DNA of 20,575 bases from a virus, in the IMG/VR virus record IMGVR_UViG_3300025840_005046, positions 1 to 20,575 of that record. The stretch is one strand, 5' to 3'. Below the pieces are notes generated by a model. That model had not been told where the DNA came from. It ran no database searches and worked only from the letters and a program-made list of their open reading frames with translations. Both the position numbers and the translations under genes were made by a program. Each line of letters opens with the position of its first letter. Position 1 is the stretch's first letter. Shown here piece after piece: positions 4,447-11,569 of the stretch.

Positions 4447-5412
4447 TTAAAAAAGTGTAAGTTCGTTTATTATTTTACTTGCTCTTTTGTTTGCTAAATC
4501 AGCATATTTGCTTTCTATTTCAAAACCTACAAAACGCCTTTTTTCTTTTGCACTCATAGCGCACTCTGTTCCGCTTCCAGCAAATGGAACTACTACTAAA
4601 TCATTTTTACGTGAGCAAGTTTGAATGAGTATTCTTGTTAGCTTTTCTGGTTTAATTGTATCGTGGTCGTATTTGCTTGTTTCATAGTTTGGCAATCTTA
4701 TTACATCGCCTAAATGTAAAGAGTTATTGAATGGTCTGCGTAGGTCTTCATATTCTTTGCGTAGTTCTTCGTATTCCTTGCGTAGTTCTTCGTATTCCTT
4801 TGTTAAATAAGGTTTACACCACGCTTGTAATTTTTTATACATTTCTTTAGTTAGCATTGTTGGCTCTGATTTATCTAAACTTAAACAAGCAGAAGCAACA
4901 CCCCCCCCATTTGTGGCAGTCCCTAAAGCTTGATTAATTTGTTTAAATATTATTTCTCCTTTTGATTTTGTTATTTCGGCTCTTATGTAATCTCTTATAT
5001 GGTAAACACATTGCGTTAAATTGTAAGCTTCATTACTATACATTAAAATACGTTCAGTAAGCGGTGCAAATGTTCTTAAATCTTTATTAAATCTTATTTG
5101 CTGCTTATGGTCGTTTGTATTTTCCCAAACTATACTATTTAACAAATTAAAGTGTTTATCAAAAATAATTTGAGAATAAGCAATATTTTTAGCATCTCCA
5201 TACCATAAAAGCGTTCCATTGTCGGATAAAATTCTTTTACATTCAATAGCCCACTTTTCAACGTCTGCCAAATACTCGTCAAATGTTTTCCATATAAAAT
5301 CAAAGTCGCCTTTAACCTTGTAATATGGCGGATCTGCAATTATTAAGTTTGCACATTTATCCGGTAAATCATTATTTAAAAAATCAATATTATAAACCTT
5401 ATTTAATTCCAT
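4447..5412 (-). CDS. DNA methyltransferase, beta-class N6-adenine/N4-cytosine type
   Basis: This 321-aa enzyme should transfer a methyl group from AdoMet to an exocyclic amino group in DNA. The catalytic motif DPPY (27-30) comes first and the AdoMet-binding motif PFAGSG (276-281) near the C-terminus, which is the beta-class order. DPPY favours adenine. The middle contains NGGGVAS (168-174), encoded through a run of eight G, and a heptad array YEELRKE repeated about three times (about 205-225), probably a coiled-coil spacer in the target-recognition region. No restriction enzyme is adjacent, so it is an orphan that may protect phage DNA. The gene is CpG-poor compared with its neighbours (about 26 CpG in 966 nt against roughly 79 per kb in portal and primase samples), suggesting transfer. 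A terminator lies just upstream. Confidence 0.88.
   Translation of the reverse strand: MELNKVYNIDFLNNDLPDKCANLIIADPPYYKVKGDFDFIWKTFDEYLADVEKWAIECKRILSDNGTLLWYGDAKNIAYSQIIFDKHFNLLNSIVWENTNDHKQQIRFNKDLRTFAPLTERILMYSNEAYNLTQCVYHIRDYIRAEITKSKGEIIFKQINQALGTATNGGGVASACLSLDKSEPTMLTKEMYKKLQAWCKPYLTKEYEELRKEYEELRKEYEDLRRPFNNSLHLGDVIRLPNYETSKYDHDTIKPEKLTRILIQTCSRKNDLVVVPFAGSGTECAMSAKEKRRFVGFEIESKYADLANKRASKIINELTLF
4737..4799 (-). repeat. Three tandem 21-bp repeats inside the methyltransferase gene
   Basis: Units at 4737-4757, 4758-4778 and 4779-4799 are near-identical; the last two match exactly and the first differs at a few positions. Each encodes one heptad close to EYEELRK. Changes in copy number would keep the frame and alter only spacer length. 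Confidence 0.9.
4901..4908 (-). repeat. G8 homopolymer tract in methyltransferase coding strand
   Basis: Eight consecutive C on the plus strand (G on the coding strand) encode part of Gly169-Gly171. In DNA this AT-rich such a run is rare. Slippage by one base would put the rest of the gene, including the AdoMet motif at 276-281, out of frame. The NGGG motif itself seems conserved in relatives, so the tract may partly reflect protein constraint. Confidence 0.85.
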
Positions 5413-5803: not shown

Positions 5804-6187
5804 TTAAAATATAGCTTTTTTATAGTAATAATGAAGTTTTTCAAATTCGTTATTGATTGCTTTGAATGTTTCATTACTTTCAAAATCCGTTTGTATTAAA
5901 TTTGTCGCCGTTTTATTCGCGTTCAATATCGTTGAATGATCGCGATTGTCAAAAATTCGACCAACTTGTTTCAAGCTTATATTGTAATATTTATTTTCGT
6001 AGATTGCCAATATTAGCAAGCTTCTAATTATTGCAATTTTTGCTTTCCTGGACCGTCCAAATATTTGTTTTGGAGTTACTTTGTAATTACGTTCGACAAA
6101 GCTTAAAAGCTCCGGAATAATTATTTCCTTCAATGTTTCATTGTTTTCCGTTTTCATTCTTTTGATTTTGGTTAATATTTTATTCAT
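5804..6187 (-). CDS. DnaA domain IV-like DNA-binding protein without ATPase
   Basis: This 127-aa protein matches the C-terminal origin-binding domain of DnaA: GRSRKAKIAIIRSLLILAIY (about 44-63) corresponds to the basic helix region, and QVGRIFDNRDHSTILNA (about 74-90) carries the DnaA signature around RDHSTI (82-87). The AAA+ domain of DnaA is absent, so it can bind DNA but not form an ATP-driven initiator filament. A second ATG at residue 11 could also serve as start. It begins 2 nt after the C5 methyltransferase stop (TAA-CA-ATG). It may bind the phage origin, or compete with host DnaA at host boxes; both are inferences. Confidence 0.75.
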   Translation of the reverse strand: MNKILTKIKRMKTENNETLKEIIIPELLSFVERNYKVTPKQIFGRSRKAKIAIIRSLLILAIYENKYYNISLKQVGRIFDNRDHSTILNANKTATNLIQTDFESNETFKAINNEFEKLHYYYKKAIF

Positions 6188-6189
6188 TG

Positions 6190-6864
6190 TTAAAATAGTT
6201 TTATTTGTTCTTTGTTATTGTCTTTTATTATTCCAAGTGCTGTTTCAAGTATTGTTTTTCCGGCTTCGTAGTCAACTAAATCTTTCGCAATTACGTCCAA
6301 TCTTTGCTTTCCTTTATATTTTCTAAAATTGTAATTATGAAATTTAGATAATTCTTCAATATTTCCTTTTGCAAAATCTTTCGGTTGTTTTCTTTCATTT
6401 AAATTGTTTGGCAAGTTAAAGTTTGTCCAATATAAATGTCTTCCCCTTTTTTTAGCAGGTATTAAAGGTTCATAATACGGTATAACATTTTCAACGCAAT
6501 ATTTGCCATTAAAATAATGTTTTAAAAAAATAACTTCTTCATAAAGTTTTAAGTCTGGGTAAGGCATTTTAAAATTTCTTCTTTTCATATTTTTCCAAGC
6601 CAATTGTAATTTGCTATGCGTTGGACAAGGTGGAGATGTCCAAATAAAATCAAAATTTTCATAATTTTCCTGCAAATATTGATGAGCATCAGCAACTACG
6701 ACAATATCATTTTGAAACCTTTCTTGATAAAGCTTTGCAAGTTCTTTATCTAATTCAACAGCAGTAATTTCAATTTCAATTTTAGCTTCATCAGCTACTT
6801 CATCCCATTTGTAACGATTACCACCAAGACAAGCGTATAAATTTAAAATCTTGTATTTTTTCAT
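6190..6864 (-). CDS. C5 cytosine DNA methyltransferase
   Basis: This 224-aa enzyme should methylate carbon 5 of cytosine in a specific DNA sequence. Visible motifs are the AdoMet-binding start LNLYACLGGNR (7-17), the catalytic SPPCPTHS with Cys 80, ENV (125-127), and AKKRGRHLYW (137-146), equivalent to the QxRxR region. It is shorter than the typical 300-400 residues, but similar short forms occur in phages with a reduced target-recognition region. There is no adjacent restriction gene. CpG content is low (about 11 in 675 nt), unlike the flanking genes. The start lies 2 nt after the VRR-NUC gene stop. Confidence 0.85.
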   Translation of the reverse strand: MKKYKILNLYACLGGNRYKWDEVADEAKIEIEITAVELDKELAKLYQERFQNDIVVVADAHQYLQENYENFDFIWTSPPCPTHSKLQLAWKNMKRRNFKMPYPDLKLYEEVIFLKHYFNGKYCVENVIPYYEPLIPAKKRGRHLYWTNFNLPNNLNERKQPKDFAKGNIEELSKFHNYNFRKYKGKQRLDVIAKDLVDYEAGKTILETALGIIKDNNKEQIKLF

Positions 6865-7337: not shown

Positions 7338-7888
7338 CGTGTTATGAAGTTTTGATTGTTATAAAATTTTTTATAAATAGCCCGGTCCGCTGAAAAATCA
7401 AGGATAAAAAAATATCCTTTGAGTTCTTCAATAAGGTATTGAAATTTGTTCGGGTAATTGTGGAAGTACCAAAAACTAATAAATCCAAGCTCTTTATATT
7501 TTAGCGTCTTTTCAATTACTTCTTTGTTTGTTATTGGCGAAGTTACAATTTCATATACCATTTGACGACCAGGTTCCGCAATATCAGCGCGAAGATTCCC
7601 AACGGAATATTCAAGTTCCGGATTGTAATTTTGCGCTTTTAATAGTTTGTACAAATGTTCCTTTATTATTAAATGCTTCTCGCTTTCTCCGGTTTTTCCA
7701 TATTTTGAAACATACCATTCGGGAAGCGTTTTGTAACGAAAATGCGCTTTTCTATTATTTACCGCTTTACTAACAAAAACTAATTCGTTTCCATTATTAC
7801 AAAATATTTCCGGTCTTTCTTGGTCAAGCTTATATTCAAGGTATTGTTCAACGGTAAGTTCCCGGTTCTTATAAATGCAAATATTCAT
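7334..7888 (-). CDS. CoiA-like PD-(D/E)xK nuclease family protein
   Basis: This 184-aa protein resembles competence protein CoiA. Matching features are HFRYK (49-53), ESEKHLIIKEHLYKLL (68-83) with Glu 68 and His 72, RADI (100-103) with Asp 102, and YEIVTSPITNKEV (112-124) with Glu 113, followed by YKELGFISFWYFH (131-143). In CoiA this region is the predicted nuclease core, often reading EIQ.S; here it is EIVTS, so the lysine/glutamine position is altered and activity is uncertain. CoiA of Gram-positive bacteria processes DNA during transformation; a phage copy next to a VRR-NUC gene suggests recombination or end-processing. The ATG shares one base with the primase stop (TAATG). Confidence 0.6.
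   Translation of the reverse strand: MNICIYKNRELTVEQYLEYKLDQERPEIFCNNGNELVFVSKAVNNRKAHFRYKTLPEWYVSKYGKTGESEKHLIIKEHLYKLLKAQNYNPELEYSVGNLRADIAEPGRQMVYEIVTSPITNKEVIEKTLKYKELGFISFWYFHNYPNKFQYLIEELKGYFFILDFSADRAIYKKFYNNQNFITR
7347..7359 (-). promoter_or_regulatory. Leader motif ACAATCAAAACTT before the VRR-NUC gene
   Basis: A 13-base version of the motif found before two other early genes (13394-13407 and 13716-13729), one A shorter. It lies 9 nt upstream of the ATG at 7337, within the 3' end of the CoiA-like gene. Confidence 0.35.
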
Positions 7889-10254
7889 TAAAATGGTGTT
7901 TCAAGGTTTTCAAATTGTTCTTCTTCGTCCGTCTTGAGCATAAACCAACGATTTCCGGAAGTGTTGCCTTCTTCGTAATTATAGTCAGCATATTCAGCGT
8001 ATTTTTTAACCCAAATATTGAATTTCTTCCTTGTCAACCATTTTTTAAAGTCAATGTATTCTTCAATAAATTGGTCAAATACTTCCTTCTTATTGTGCCT
8101 AACATTAATAGGAAAGTTTTCCGCGTCTTTTATAAACTCGATAAATTCCATTGATGATTCCGCGATTAACTTTCTCAACTGAATATTTTTCGCGTCCTGG
8201 CTTATTAAACCATATTGAAAATATTTTTGAAGGCATTGAATCATGTAATTGTCAAAGTTTCGAAAATCTTTTTCGCTCCAATCGTCAAACAATTGACGTT
8301 TAAATTCATCGAACGGCGTAATATTTCGACCATAATATTGAGCAAATTCCACTTCGTGACGTCTTCGATCATTTGACCAACCGGCGCCTTTAATCGCGTA
8401 ATTTGTCGAAATTAATATTTTCGGAGATTCTTCAACGCTCAATTTTATTGCGTCTTTGTTTTTACGTTCTAAAGTTATTCCTTCAGTAACCAAGGAAAAT
8501 ATATTTTCAAAGTTAAAGTTTTTCTTGACATCGTCAAAAACAAGAATGTCGGTGTCGTGTCCAACGGTTTGAAAGGCAAAGCTTTTTTTGTCGTCGAACG
8601 CTTTACCGTCCAAAATTGAAACGCTTCTTATTTGCTTTAACCCTTGAACAAACAAACCCTTTCCGGTTCCACCTTCCGGGTTATCGGAAATAACTTCGTC
8701 GTTTAAAATTACGGAAGCGTTGTCCGTTTTATTCTTGTAATTGCTTAATAGGTAACCAATGCAACATTCCATTGCAAGCGGTTTATTGTTGCTTATATTG
8801 TTAATAAAAGTCTTGTAATCGTTTTCCGTTTCTTTTGTTGGTTCAAACGTTCGTTTAATTATTTGATTTTCCCAAACGTACCCTTGAACGTCCAGGTAAT
8901 CAATAAGTTTAATTTCGTCCTTTGTTATTTCCAAAATGCCGTTTTCAAAGCTGATAAAACTTTTATCTTTTTCGTCCTTCAGCATTAACAATTCTATTGA
9001 ATCCAACATTGAAAGAAAATTTTCTTGAAATAGCTTAATATTAGAAGCGCAATAATTCCAAACGGCGAGTTCCTTCCGGTCCATAAGATAAGCAAGGGTA
9101 AAGTCTTTAATTTTGTCAATACTTGTTTCCCGAACCTTATTCGATTCAATACGAACAAAGATAGGTTTCAATGCTTGATTCGGGAAATACTTTTTAAATC
9201 CGTTCATTTCAAGAAACAACTTGAAGCTTGCCGGATTAATAGAAACTTTTTCGTTCCCTTGTTTGTCTTCCTTTACCGTCCAAAAATTAACAAGCTCCAG
9301 GTTAGCGCTTATTTTGTCAAACGTTTCTTCGTCAATTTTATACTTTTGGGCAACTATTTTTTTGCCTTTGCTTATATCCTTCTTAACGTTGTTTATTAGG
9401 TTGTTATCTTCGAAAAACTTTATATTGAAATCCCGCTTTTTATACGCGCTTTTTATTGCGTGTTCGGCTTCCCTTTGCGAAAAGTCCCCAATAACGACGT
9501 TGTTTAAAATATAACCTATTGCATAAGATTGTGAAACGCCATATTCGCAAAACAATCCTGCGACGTCAAAAATATACGCATTGCGTTCCCCTTCGGTAAA
9601 TGATTTCGAAAAGTTAAAGTTCATTATCTTCCGGGCAATTACGTCTTCGTCGTAAATGGGAAGCAATGGTTCCTTGTTTACAACCTCGTAACCTTCGTCA
9701 ATAATTAACGGCGTATAAATTTTAGCGTCGTAATTTATGTAAATGTTAGGATCATAAGAGGAAAAACAAACGCGGGAAATGTCCGACGTTGAAAGGTCAA
9801 AATATTTGTAATCAAACTCCTTCTTAAATTGTTTAAATATGTTCGTATAATTCGAAGCTTCGTTTTCGCTTATATTTATTACCGCTTTATATCCGTTTCC
9901 GGAAGGGCTTAAAAAACAAGCGACAACGAACGGATTGCTTTTAATTGTTTCAAACGTTTCTTGAAGTTCAAGGTCGTCGTTTATGTCGTCAAAGTCCAAA
10001 ACCATTAAACCGGAAGATTTTACTAAACCCAAAATTGCCCGGTGCGAAAATTCCCCTTGAAATAATATGGCCGGAAGGTTTGTTTTGAGTTGATTCCTTT
10101 CTTCCTTTGTTTTGGCTTGTCTTATCTTGTTTACAAGCTCTTTGTCATTTCCTCGTTTTATGCGCTGAAGAATTTTCTCCAGAGTAACAATGTAAGGAAC
10201 GTCTTTCGTTTTATAAAGGTCCTTAAATACCGTTATTTTCTTTTCTTTTGTCAT
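7888..10254 (-). CDS. Primase-helicase (VirE/BT4734-like primase plus D5-like helicase)
   Basis: This 788-aa protein is the likely replisome core. The N-terminal part is an archaeo-eukaryotic-type primase of the VirE/BT4734 group: VLDFDD with Asp 87 and Asp 89 as metal ligands, and SPSGNGYKAVI (116-126). A PriCT-like linker lies around EGERNAYIFDVAGLF (221-235). The C-terminal half is a superfamily 3/D5-like helicase: Walker A PEGGTGKG (526-533), Walker B ILVFDD (570-575), sensor ISTNY (615-619) and a probable arginine finger DRRR (629-632). All motifs are intact. It makes primers and unwinds DNA at the fork. The iteron-like repeats lie directly upstream of its start, and the stop overlaps the CoiA-like gene. 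Confidence 0.9.
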   Translation of the reverse strand: MTKEKKITVFKDLYKTKDVPYIVTLEKILQRIKRGNDKELVNKIRQAKTKEERNQLKTNLPAILFQGEFSHRAILGLVKSSGLMVLDFDDINDDLELQETFETIKSNPFVVACFLSPSGNGYKAVINISENEASNYTNIFKQFKKEFDYKYFDLSTSDISRVCFSSYDPNIYINYDAKIYTPLIIDEGYEVVNKEPLLPIYDEDVIARKIMNFNFSKSFTEGERNAYIFDVAGLFCEYGVSQSYAIGYILNNVVIGDFSQREAEHAIKSAYKKRDFNIKFFEDNNLINNVKKDISKGKKIVAQKYKIDEETFDKISANLELVNFWTVKEDKQGNEKVSINPASFKLFLEMNGFKKYFPNQALKPIFVRIESNKVRETSIDKIKDFTLAYLMDRKELAVWNYCASNIKLFQENFLSMLDSIELLMLKDEKDKSFISFENGILEITKDEIKLIDYLDVQGYVWENQIIKRTFEPTKETENDYKTFINNISNNKPLAMECCIGYLLSNYKNKTDNASVILNDEVISDNPEGGTGKGLFVQGLKQIRSVSILDGKAFDDKKSFAFQTVGHDTDILVFDDVKKNFNFENIFSLVTEGITLERKNKDAIKLSVEESPKILISTNYAIKGAGWSNDRRRHEVEFAQYYGRNITPFDEFKRQLFDDWSEKDFRNFDNYMIQCLQKYFQYGLISQDAKNIQLRKLIAESSMEFIEFIKDAENFPINVRHNKKEVFDQFIEEYIDFKKWLTRKKFNIWVKKYAEYADYNYEEGNTSGNRWFMLKTDEEEQFENLETPF

Positions 10255-10280
10255 GAATATTTTGGTTTATGGTGTAAAAT

Positions 10281-10491
10281 ACAACACTTTTTATCAATTT
10301 GCAACACTTTTAAACGCTTTGCAACACTTTTATTTTTAAATGTGTTGCGGTTTAAACCCTTGGTATTACTACGTTTAAAGGTCATCGCAACACTTGCAAC
10401 ACTTTTTTTTTGTTTTTTTGAAATTTTTTGTAAAAATAATTTTTCTCTTATAAGGAGTAATTGGAAACGCCTAAAATGTGTTGCAAGTGTT
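10281..10491 (+). repeat. Iteron-like block of GCAACACTT repeats (candidate origin or operator)
   Basis: Copies of GCAACACTT and close variants lie at 10281-10290 (ACAACACTTT), 10301-10310, 10321-10330, 10387-10395 and 10396-10404 on the plus strand; inverted copies (AnTGTGTTGC) lie at 10339-10348 and 10476-10485, the last extended to TGTGTTGCAAGTGTTT. The first three are spaced exactly 20 bp apart, about two helix turns, and the pair at 10387-10404 is tandem. Between them is very A/T-rich DNA (10405-10450). The block fills the gap between the HTH gene and the primase-helicase gene. When read as protein the motif falls in all three frames, which argues for a DNA-level function such as initiator or repressor binding. 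Confidence 0.8.
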
Positions 10492-10683
10492 TCATTTAAA
10501 AATGTCAATTCGAAGCAAATCTTCCAATTTAAGCAGCATTTCAACCGTTGTATTGGCTTTGCCGTTTTCAATGCGGTTAATTGTTTCAAAACTTGTTTTG
10601 GCTTTCCTTGCAAGGTCTTTTTGAGTTAACCCGGCGCTTTGCCGGGCTTCTCTTATTTTAGTTCCGATTATGTTCTTATTCAT
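10492..10683 (-). CDS. Small XRE-type helix-turn-helix regulator
   Basis: This 63-aa protein is little more than a Cro/CI-type helix-turn-helix: IREARQSAGLTQKDLARKAK (10-29) is helix one to two, and TSFETINRIENGKANTTVEM (30-49) contains the recognition helix and the typical IENGK turn. It lacks the oligomerisation domain of CI-like repressors, so Cro-like action is more likely. The start at 10683 follows the methyltransferase stop by one base; an earlier in-frame ATG at 10728 lies inside the methyltransferase gene and is less likely. The GCAACACTT repeats begin at its stop codon, so it is a candidate to bind them and control the primase gene. Confidence 0.8.
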   Translation of the reverse strand: MNKNIIGTKIREARQSAGLTQKDLARKAKTSFETINRIENGKANTTVEMLLKLEDLLRIDIFK

Positions 10684-10684
10684 T

Positions 10685-11569
10685 TTATTGTTTTTTAAAT
10701 ACAAGTACATTTTGATGTATTTTAACAAGTTTATGAGATTTCATATTTCCATTTGCTCTCATACTTGCACTTGCAATGGGATTTAAGAGTATTGCTTCAT
10801 TATAATAAACCATTCCACACTTTTTAAAAACATTAATGGTGTCAGGTACAAAGCCAATATAATTTCCTTTTTTATCTCTTACCTCGCCAACCACAAAACA
10901 AGCATAACCACCATTTTTTAATAAATTGCAACTCTTTGAAATTATTTCTTCATACGCTTTTAAAAAGCTTGTGTAGTCCATATTTGAAATATCTCCTTCT
11001 AAATCGCTATATACTTCTAAATCAGCATATGGTGGGCAACTAAAGACAAAATCAAACTTTTTATTAAATCCGTTTAAAACTTGGTTACTATCACCTACAT
11101 ACCAATTGGGTTGGTTGTTTGCTTCAAGTATTTCTAAAGCTTGTTCCCTATTGCTATCAATTTGCTCTTGCCTTATGTCTATACCGGTGTACCTATATCC
11201 GAGATAATTTGCGACAATTCCACGAACAGAGCCACCAGCAAAAGGGTCTAAAATCTCGCCATTTTCTGGCACAAACCAATGATATAAAACTTCGCAAAGT
11301 GCAGGGTCAAAAATAGAAGTTCCTTGCTCTTTACTTTCTTTTACCTTGCCCTCTTTTTGTCTGTAATAATCAAAAGACTTAACAGCACCTTTGTAGGTCA
11401 TATCATCTTTTCTTCCTATTTCACTTTTAATTCCGATACCCTTCCAAATACGTTTTCTTTTTTGCCAATTTCCACTTTTTGTGTCAAGTATGCTAAATGG
11501 TGGTTCAATAAACTTATCCCGCAAAAGCGGATCTCTTATAATTTTATTTCCAAATAAATCTTTTTCCAT
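10685..11569 (-). CDS. DNA methyltransferase, N4/N6 family, motif order I then IV
   Basis: This 294-aa enzyme has the AdoMet motif DPFAGGS (108-114) followed by the catalytic motif SCPPY (177-181), the reverse order of the methyltransferase at 4447-5412, so the two are not copies. Ser before PPY is more typical of N4-cytosine enzymes than DPPY, but the target base cannot be fixed by eye. The region before motif I (about 20-100) and the C-terminal part (LNPIASASMRANGNMKSHK) may hold target recognition. No restriction partner is present. CpG content is very low (about 14 in 885 nt), suggesting a recent arrival. The HTH gene starts one base after its stop. Confidence 0.85.
   Translation of the reverse strand: MEKDLFGNKIIRDPLLRDKFIEPPFSILDTKSGNWQKRKRIWKGIGIKSEIGRKDDMTYKGAVKSFDYYRQKEGKVKESKEQGTSIFDPALCEVLYHWFVPENGEILDPFAGGSVRGIVANYLGYRYTGIDIRQEQIDSNREQALEILEANNQPNWYVGDSNQVLNGFNKKFDFVFSCPPYADLEVYSDLEGDISNMDYTSFLKAYEEIISKSCNLLKNGGYACFVVGEVRDKKGNYIGFVPDTINVFKKCGMVYYNEAILLNPIASASMRANGNMKSHKLVKIHQNVLVFKKQ

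Follow-up and report, generated by a model that had tools for sequence, protein, structure and literature searches.

Gene neighbourhood and layout of the repeat array

The window (the whole stretch of DNA analysed here, 20,575 bases) is the virus record IMGVR_UViG_3300025840_005046, which is classed as linear. It encodes a portal protein, a terminase, an endolysin, an Erf-like annealing protein and several methyltransferases, and most likely represents a phage of Bacteroidota hosts. Three DNA methyltransferase-like genes of differing types (4447-5412, 6190-6864 and 10685-11569) share this one short phage fragment. A small HTH gene and a primase-helicase gene, both leftward, flank a stretch of short repeats, which is intergenic, with the stop of the HTH gene (10492) on one side and the start codon of the primase (ATG, 10254) on the other. 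The HTH product is a Cro/HipB-like regulator. Another nearby gene codes for an orphan DnaA domain IV protein, in which the AAA+ part is absent and the signature reads RDHST. Domain matches bear out the identity of all three neighbours as given in a preliminary description of this DNA (HTH_3; BT4734-like_N plus PriCT_1; Bac_DnaA_C). The features are collected in Table 1.

A motif scan allowing at most one mismatch located eight copies of GCAACAC(T/A)T at 10281-10493, where at least seven in both orientations had been described. A first-order Markov model built on this same region predicts a mean of 0.27 copies, with a maximum of 3 in 2000 draws. In line with this, CAACACTT occurs six times in the window against 0.58 expected, and five of the six occurrences lie inside the array. 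Every point of the earlier account of the repeats holds: three copies are phased at exactly 20 bp, two stand in tandem at 9 bp, and the inverted copy said to abut the HTH gene is a second 9-bp pair in the opposite orientation that overlaps the HTH stop codon. The A/T-rich stretch noted there is equally real, with a GC content of 20% compared to 35% for the window; only 2.4% of 71-bp windows are as GC-poor. The opposed pairs thus enclose 71 bp of A/T-rich DNA, and further copies follow towards the primase gene.

Table 1. Features of the putative origin region and its neighbours. Positions are those of the window unless stated otherwise.
Feature	Position	Strand	Basis or remark
Orphan DnaA domain IV protein (Bac_DnaA_C)	5804..6187	-	Domain match
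Primase-helicase, presumed initiator reading the iterons	7888..10254	-	BT4734-like_N PrimPol domain, PriCT_1, SF3/D5-type helicase, C-terminal winged helix
C-terminal winged helix of the primase-helicase (residues 702-774), presumed iteron reader	7933..8151	-	AlphaFold2 models, covariation, fold matches
Helicase part (residues about 322-690), SaPI5 Rep-like	8185..9291	-	Predicted model, fold match
Intergenic region with putative origin	10255..10491	.	HTH stop to primase start
Iteron ACAACACTT, 20-bp phase, closest to primase start	10281..10289	+	Motif scan, 1 mismatch
Iteron GCAACACTT, 20-bp phase	10301..10309	+	Motif scan
Iteron GCAACACTT, 20-bp phase	10321..10329	+	Motif scan
Iteron GCAACACAT, opposed to proximal pair at conserved 47-bp spacing	10340..10348	-	Motif scan
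Proximal pair of iterons in tandem, 2 x GCAACACTT at a 9-bp step, facing distal pair	10387..10404	+	Motif scan; copies 10387-10395 and 10396-10404
A/T-rich core, 71 bp, presumed melting site	10405..10475	.	Composition, 20% GC
Distal tandem iteron pair, GCAACACAT (10476-10484) and GAAACACTT (10485-10493)	10476..10493	-	Motif scan
Small HTH_3 protein, upstream of array	10492..10683	-	Domain match; not a general array reader
Array of GCAACACTT in relative L275	-212 to -28 relative to primase	.	Motif scan

The preliminary description knew of no account of this exact repeat, and a literature search for the word agrees, with no relevant description among the matches listed; yet its CACTT core corresponds to the AAGTG iteron of Cch2 of SCCmec (PMC7581432). 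GC skew, suggested earlier as a check, has no turning point at the array, either in the window or in two related contigs (G006 and G007). Because these two contigs begin and end at different points, each spans the ends of the other; they show some mosaic differences.

A kept layout with a changing word

Related primases were gathered from viral contigs and from genomes; each scan contributed its best 80 at most, out of at least 595 in one of them. A first scan of genome contigs with the primase of L008, whose group includes G006 and G007, gave no relative; a scan of genome contigs with alignment A1 gave 27. According to their records, the genome relatives are mostly Flavobacteriaceae and other Bacteroidota, and some are MAGs labelled as other phyla. 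Upstream of 82 of 149 distinct related primases, the repeat cluster exceeds the 95th percentile of coding controls. Among the 67 below this threshold, some show sparse copies by eye and others may lack an array. Three loci scored as array-less (L060, L065 and L073) nevertheless carry sparse TGACACAT/CGTCACTT copies on inspection. Together with the array of the L008 group, in which no DnaA-domain protein was detected, they led us to drop the idea that presence of the array goes with presence of that protein.

In the two nearest relatives (80% primase identity), array and HTH gene are both kept. A group at 57% identity has the same word, GCAACAC, and lacks the HTH gene. More distant primases have other words at the same place: GGTACAC, AGTACAC, GGGGCAC/AGGGCAC, CGTCAC types, ACTACAC, AAGACAC, AGGACAC, TGCACTA, TTGGACA and AGTCAAC, most of which end in CAC. 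These labels were assigned by hand from the scan outputs, which is a source of bias. L025 (GGGGCAC) and L031 (GGTACAC) differ in word although they are 84% identical overall. GCAACAC itself recurs beside primases that are only 41-43% identical to that of the window (L259, L265 and L275). Relatives that keep the primase and lack the repeats had been named as evidence against an origin. This particular word is indeed absent from many relatives, but another word then occupies the same place in the same layout, and in the relatives, as in the window, the array is on the 5' side of the primase gene.

Several loci have peculiarities of their own. L275, an uncultured Tenacibaculum contig of 343,890 bases and possibly an integrated prophage, has an enlarged set of copies, some of them degenerate. 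Some 100 bp 5' of the primase, L024, L031, L034, L044, L064 and L082 have a conserved leader of the form TATTTGCAGAGGGGTTGTCGGAGGCATCCAC...AAAAGGTTT, which comes after a TAnnTTTG promoter and is common to loci with different array words. It is possibly a structured 5' leader; L031, L034 and L082 gave no Rfam match for it. Small proteins are encoded between array and primase in L050 and L052 (both at about -476 to +3 from the primase start) and in L042 and L171. Those of L050 and L171 are NUMOD4/HNH_3 homing-endonuclease-like, and the L042 protein looks alike.

The geometry of the arrays is more constant than their sequence. In 42 arrays, the largest spacer has a median length of 76 bp and a median GC content of 0.27, and copies face each other across it in 37. 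Two spacings, of about 85 bp and 43-49 bp, recur between oppositely oriented copies in 31 arrays. The 43-49 bp step between oppositely oriented neighbours is present in 22 of these 31, against 3.8 expected and a maximum of 11 under random placement in the same span (2000 trials). The arrays in this comparison all come from loci whose words had been labelled, and relatedness makes some of them less than fully independent. The corresponding step in the window is 47 bp. In CGTCAC-type arrays the layout is reversed and the spacing is similar, at 45 bp in both L156 and L186 and at 46 bp in L269. A strict rule of a tandem pair facing a tandem pair was rejected, as only 5 of 45 arrays with exact words fit it; the looser rule of opposed copies at fixed spacing holds across the arrays. 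Since the spacing stays constant while the sequence changes, the geometry points to one conserved nucleoprotein assembly.

Candidate readers of the array

The array had been proposed to be either a replication origin or a multi-site operator, with the HTH protein or the DnaA-like protein as binder. Conservation, layout and covariation argue for the origin; neither proposed binder is borne out. As an operator, the array would let the primase-helicase or another regulator control primase transcription and would not be an origin. Its position directly 5' of the primase gene, reaching close to the ATG, fits such a role, and since many relatives have a typical Bacteroidota TAnnTTTG promoter between array and gene, a bound protein could affect transcription. 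The window itself, however, shows no TAnnTTTG motif between array and gene on the strand of the primase, and the array is kept in L050-L053 and L054-L058 although another gene separates it from the primase. Opposed clusters over a low-GC spacer of fixed length are moreover the known layout of PICI origins (PMC6092414) and atypical for an operator, and it is apparently the helicase that reads the array, through its own C-terminal domain (see below). We consider a purely regulatory array improbable.

A still weaker case can be made for the orphan DnaA domain IV protein. It is common among the relatives, where its gene is near or directly upstream of the array in most, giving the order DnaA - array - primase. 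Many relatives keep its RDH(T/S/A)T signature, and the constant CAC(A/T) of the word resembles the CACA half of the DnaA box TT(A/T)TNCACA. A motif search found no such consensus box in the window, though, and in the L008 group, whose array also uses GCAACAC, no DnaA-domain protein and no HTH protein was detected. A further objection comes from natural swaps, in which the word tracks the primase. In the pairs L031/L064, L044/L066 and L082/L030, the DnaA proteins are 94-97% identical, whereas the primases are 48-49% identical and the words differ. Conversely, L064, L066 and L082 share one word and have primases that are 97-99% identical, with DnaA proteins of only 35-48% identity. Across 34 loci with six words, the word changes five times on the primase tree, which is the minimum, and eight times on the DnaA tree. 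An origin of the DnaA-box (oriC) type read by this protein is thus very unlikely; the protein could be an accessory factor. That the array is the operator of the adjacent HTH repressor can practically be dismissed: the distal pair overlaps the stop codon of this Cro/HipB-like gene, but the array lies 3' of it, 18 of 20 relatives tested lack it (only the two nearest have it), and the 57%-identical relatives keep the word without it.

The primase-helicase remains as the likely reader, because most relatives lack the HTH, the DnaA-domain protein is discordant with the word, and array and primase appear to be exchanged as a unit. Between L031 and L044, shared DNA runs from -403 to +2389, and between L025 and L034 from -341 to +2382 (BLAST boundaries), thus taking in the array and the primase gene up to roughly the gene's end. 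The DNA next to these stretches is less similar or unalignable. Natural swaps of these kinds suggest that array and primase travel together from phage to phage, as a single cassette set between alike flanks. Array and primase are neighbours, so some of the shared inheritance of word and primase follows from linkage alone.

Within the primase-helicase, the word covaries with the C-terminal region. We compared 24 lineage representatives with a body identity below 62%. Lineages with the same word show an excess identity of 0.103 in residues 701-785 (p=0.0004; 5000 permutations, 11 windows of residues); outside the C-terminal region, only residues 1-100 fall under 0.05 (excess 0.041, p=0.015). In pairs that are 75-88% identical over residues 1-700, identity in residues 735-780 is 0.66 for the same word vs 0.48 for different words, and residues 1-640 hardly differ between the two kinds of pair. 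When word similarity was graded (sliding-window partial correlation), the C-terminal signal was positive and not significant (p 0.11-0.34 for 701-780). A preliminary analysis on pairs not collapsed into lineages peaked elsewhere (541-585) and was set aside.

AlphaFold2 predicts a C-terminal winged helix at residues 702-774, with a third helix at 742-755 and a wing turn, GNTSGNRW, at 763-770. The covarying wing residues sit in this turn, which reads GN(S/T)xGxRW in GCAACAC lineages, RNHxGRY in most CGTCAC/TTGTCAC lineages and KTNxRRW in GGTACAC/GGGGCAC lineages. The Walker A and B residues are invariant. The helicase half best matches the SaPI5 primase-helicase Rep (7ola; Z 21.4, rmsd 5.2, 386 residues, model residues 322-767). 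The isolated C-terminal domain matches the winged helices of RFX5 (8zjr, Z 7.3), RFX1 (1dp7, Z 6.6) and the origin-binding domain of phage P4 (1ka8; Z 6.5, rmsd 2.5, 71 residues). A Z below 8 can reflect a common arrangement, and at this level the matches of the predicted domain are taken to indicate the fold only. In RFX proteins it is the wing that reads DNA, which would fit the covariation of the wing with the word. Sequence searches of the PDB gave no relative, either for the primase or for its profile.

A putative origin module and its known counterparts

We think it highly probable that the array is a replication origin whose iterons are bound by the C-terminal winged helix of the phage's own self-loading primase-helicase. 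From the array, its kept layout with a changing word, the co-inheritance of word and primase and the C-terminal covariation, all of them features of sequence, we infer binding, melting and origin activity at this site. The primase-helicase would bind the iterons via its winged helix, with recognition helix and wing reading the word, and oligomers would assemble on the opposed clusters. The A/T-rich stretch between the clusters may then melt, allowing the helicase to load and unwind and the N-terminal PrimPol domain to prime.

Among the closest counterparts is the rep-ori module of SaPIs (SaPI5 Rep) and of other PICIs, those of E. coli included. In PICI origins, two sets of short iterons surround an A/T-rich region, a layout reported as unique among the bacterial replicons then known (PMC6092414). 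The window shares this arrangement beside a (primase-)helicase gene (PMC6092414, PMC7581432), as well as a D5/SF3-type helicase whose fold matches SaPI5 Rep. The SaPI/PICI origin is read by the C-terminal domain, which we presume for the window from the winged-helix fold and its covariation with the word, and SaPI/PICI elements carry different iterons, as do the relatives of the window. In contrast, the array lies 5' of the gene in the window and its relatives and 3' in SaPI/PICI. The window is a phage with its own portal, terminase and endolysin, whereas SaPI/PICI are satellites, and it further differs in its BT4734-type primase domain and its Bacteroidota hosts. The array-primase module would thus work like a SaPI/PICI replicon, but it has neither the 3' origin nor the satellite character.

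Phage P4 alpha is a primase-helicase fusion whose C-terminal winged helix reads type I decamer iterons in both orientations. The window protein is predicted to have a similar build, and the P4 domain is among the top fold matches of its isolated C-terminal domain; P4 alpha differs in its primase domain and in the separate crr site of P4, and PDB sequence searches detect no relation. Cch2 of SCCmec binds AAGTG direct repeats by its gene via its C-terminal domain and needs these iterons for unwinding (PMC7581432). The CACTT core in the window gives this same AAGTG when read on the opposite strand, and both Cch2 and the window protein have a D5-type helicase related to SaPI5 Rep. Unlike in the window, the Cch2 iterons are three in number and follow the gene, a protein of its own acts as primase, and the element is a chromosomal cassette rather than a phage. 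In the PLE satellites of Vibrio cholerae, RepA/ori modules are swapped under pressure from the nuclease Odn (PMC8263062). There, as appears to be the case in the relatives of the window, the DNA-binding domain of the initiator and the origin covary and are swapped as modules. PLE differs in its RepA_N initiator, its semi-palindromic iterons of about 30 bp and the lack of a helicase in the initiator, so the relationship is analogous only.

Two loci code for proteins built like ICP1 Odn. L083 (5195-5857, + strand) and L084 (5195-5854, + strand) encode, immediately upstream of their primase genes, proteins of 219-220 aa that are 41% identical, in which a T5orf172/MUG113 (GIY-YIG type) nuclease is fused to a copy of the primase C-terminal winged helix. 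The wing of the fusions, RTN(S/A)xRF, resembles RTNSTRW in the primase wing of their own phages. Two further scans for Odn-like fusions found only these two.

More tentatively, and as a picture that we consider possible rather than probable, these arrays might form an origin family of Bacteroidota phages with fixed geometry, fast-changing words and a wing-and-helix code in the C-terminal domain of the initiator, spread as array-primase cassettes, in which diversification of the word may be driven by origin-directed nucleases.

Taken together, a PICI-type layout would now extend to phages of another phylum, 5' of the gene and with more than ten iteron words on one conserved scaffold. The array family would offer naturally occurring data on changes of specificity in a winged helix, and its layout would allow origins of uncultured phages to be located with nothing but their sequence. 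The Odn-like fusions may provide a testable reason for the swapping of replication modules.
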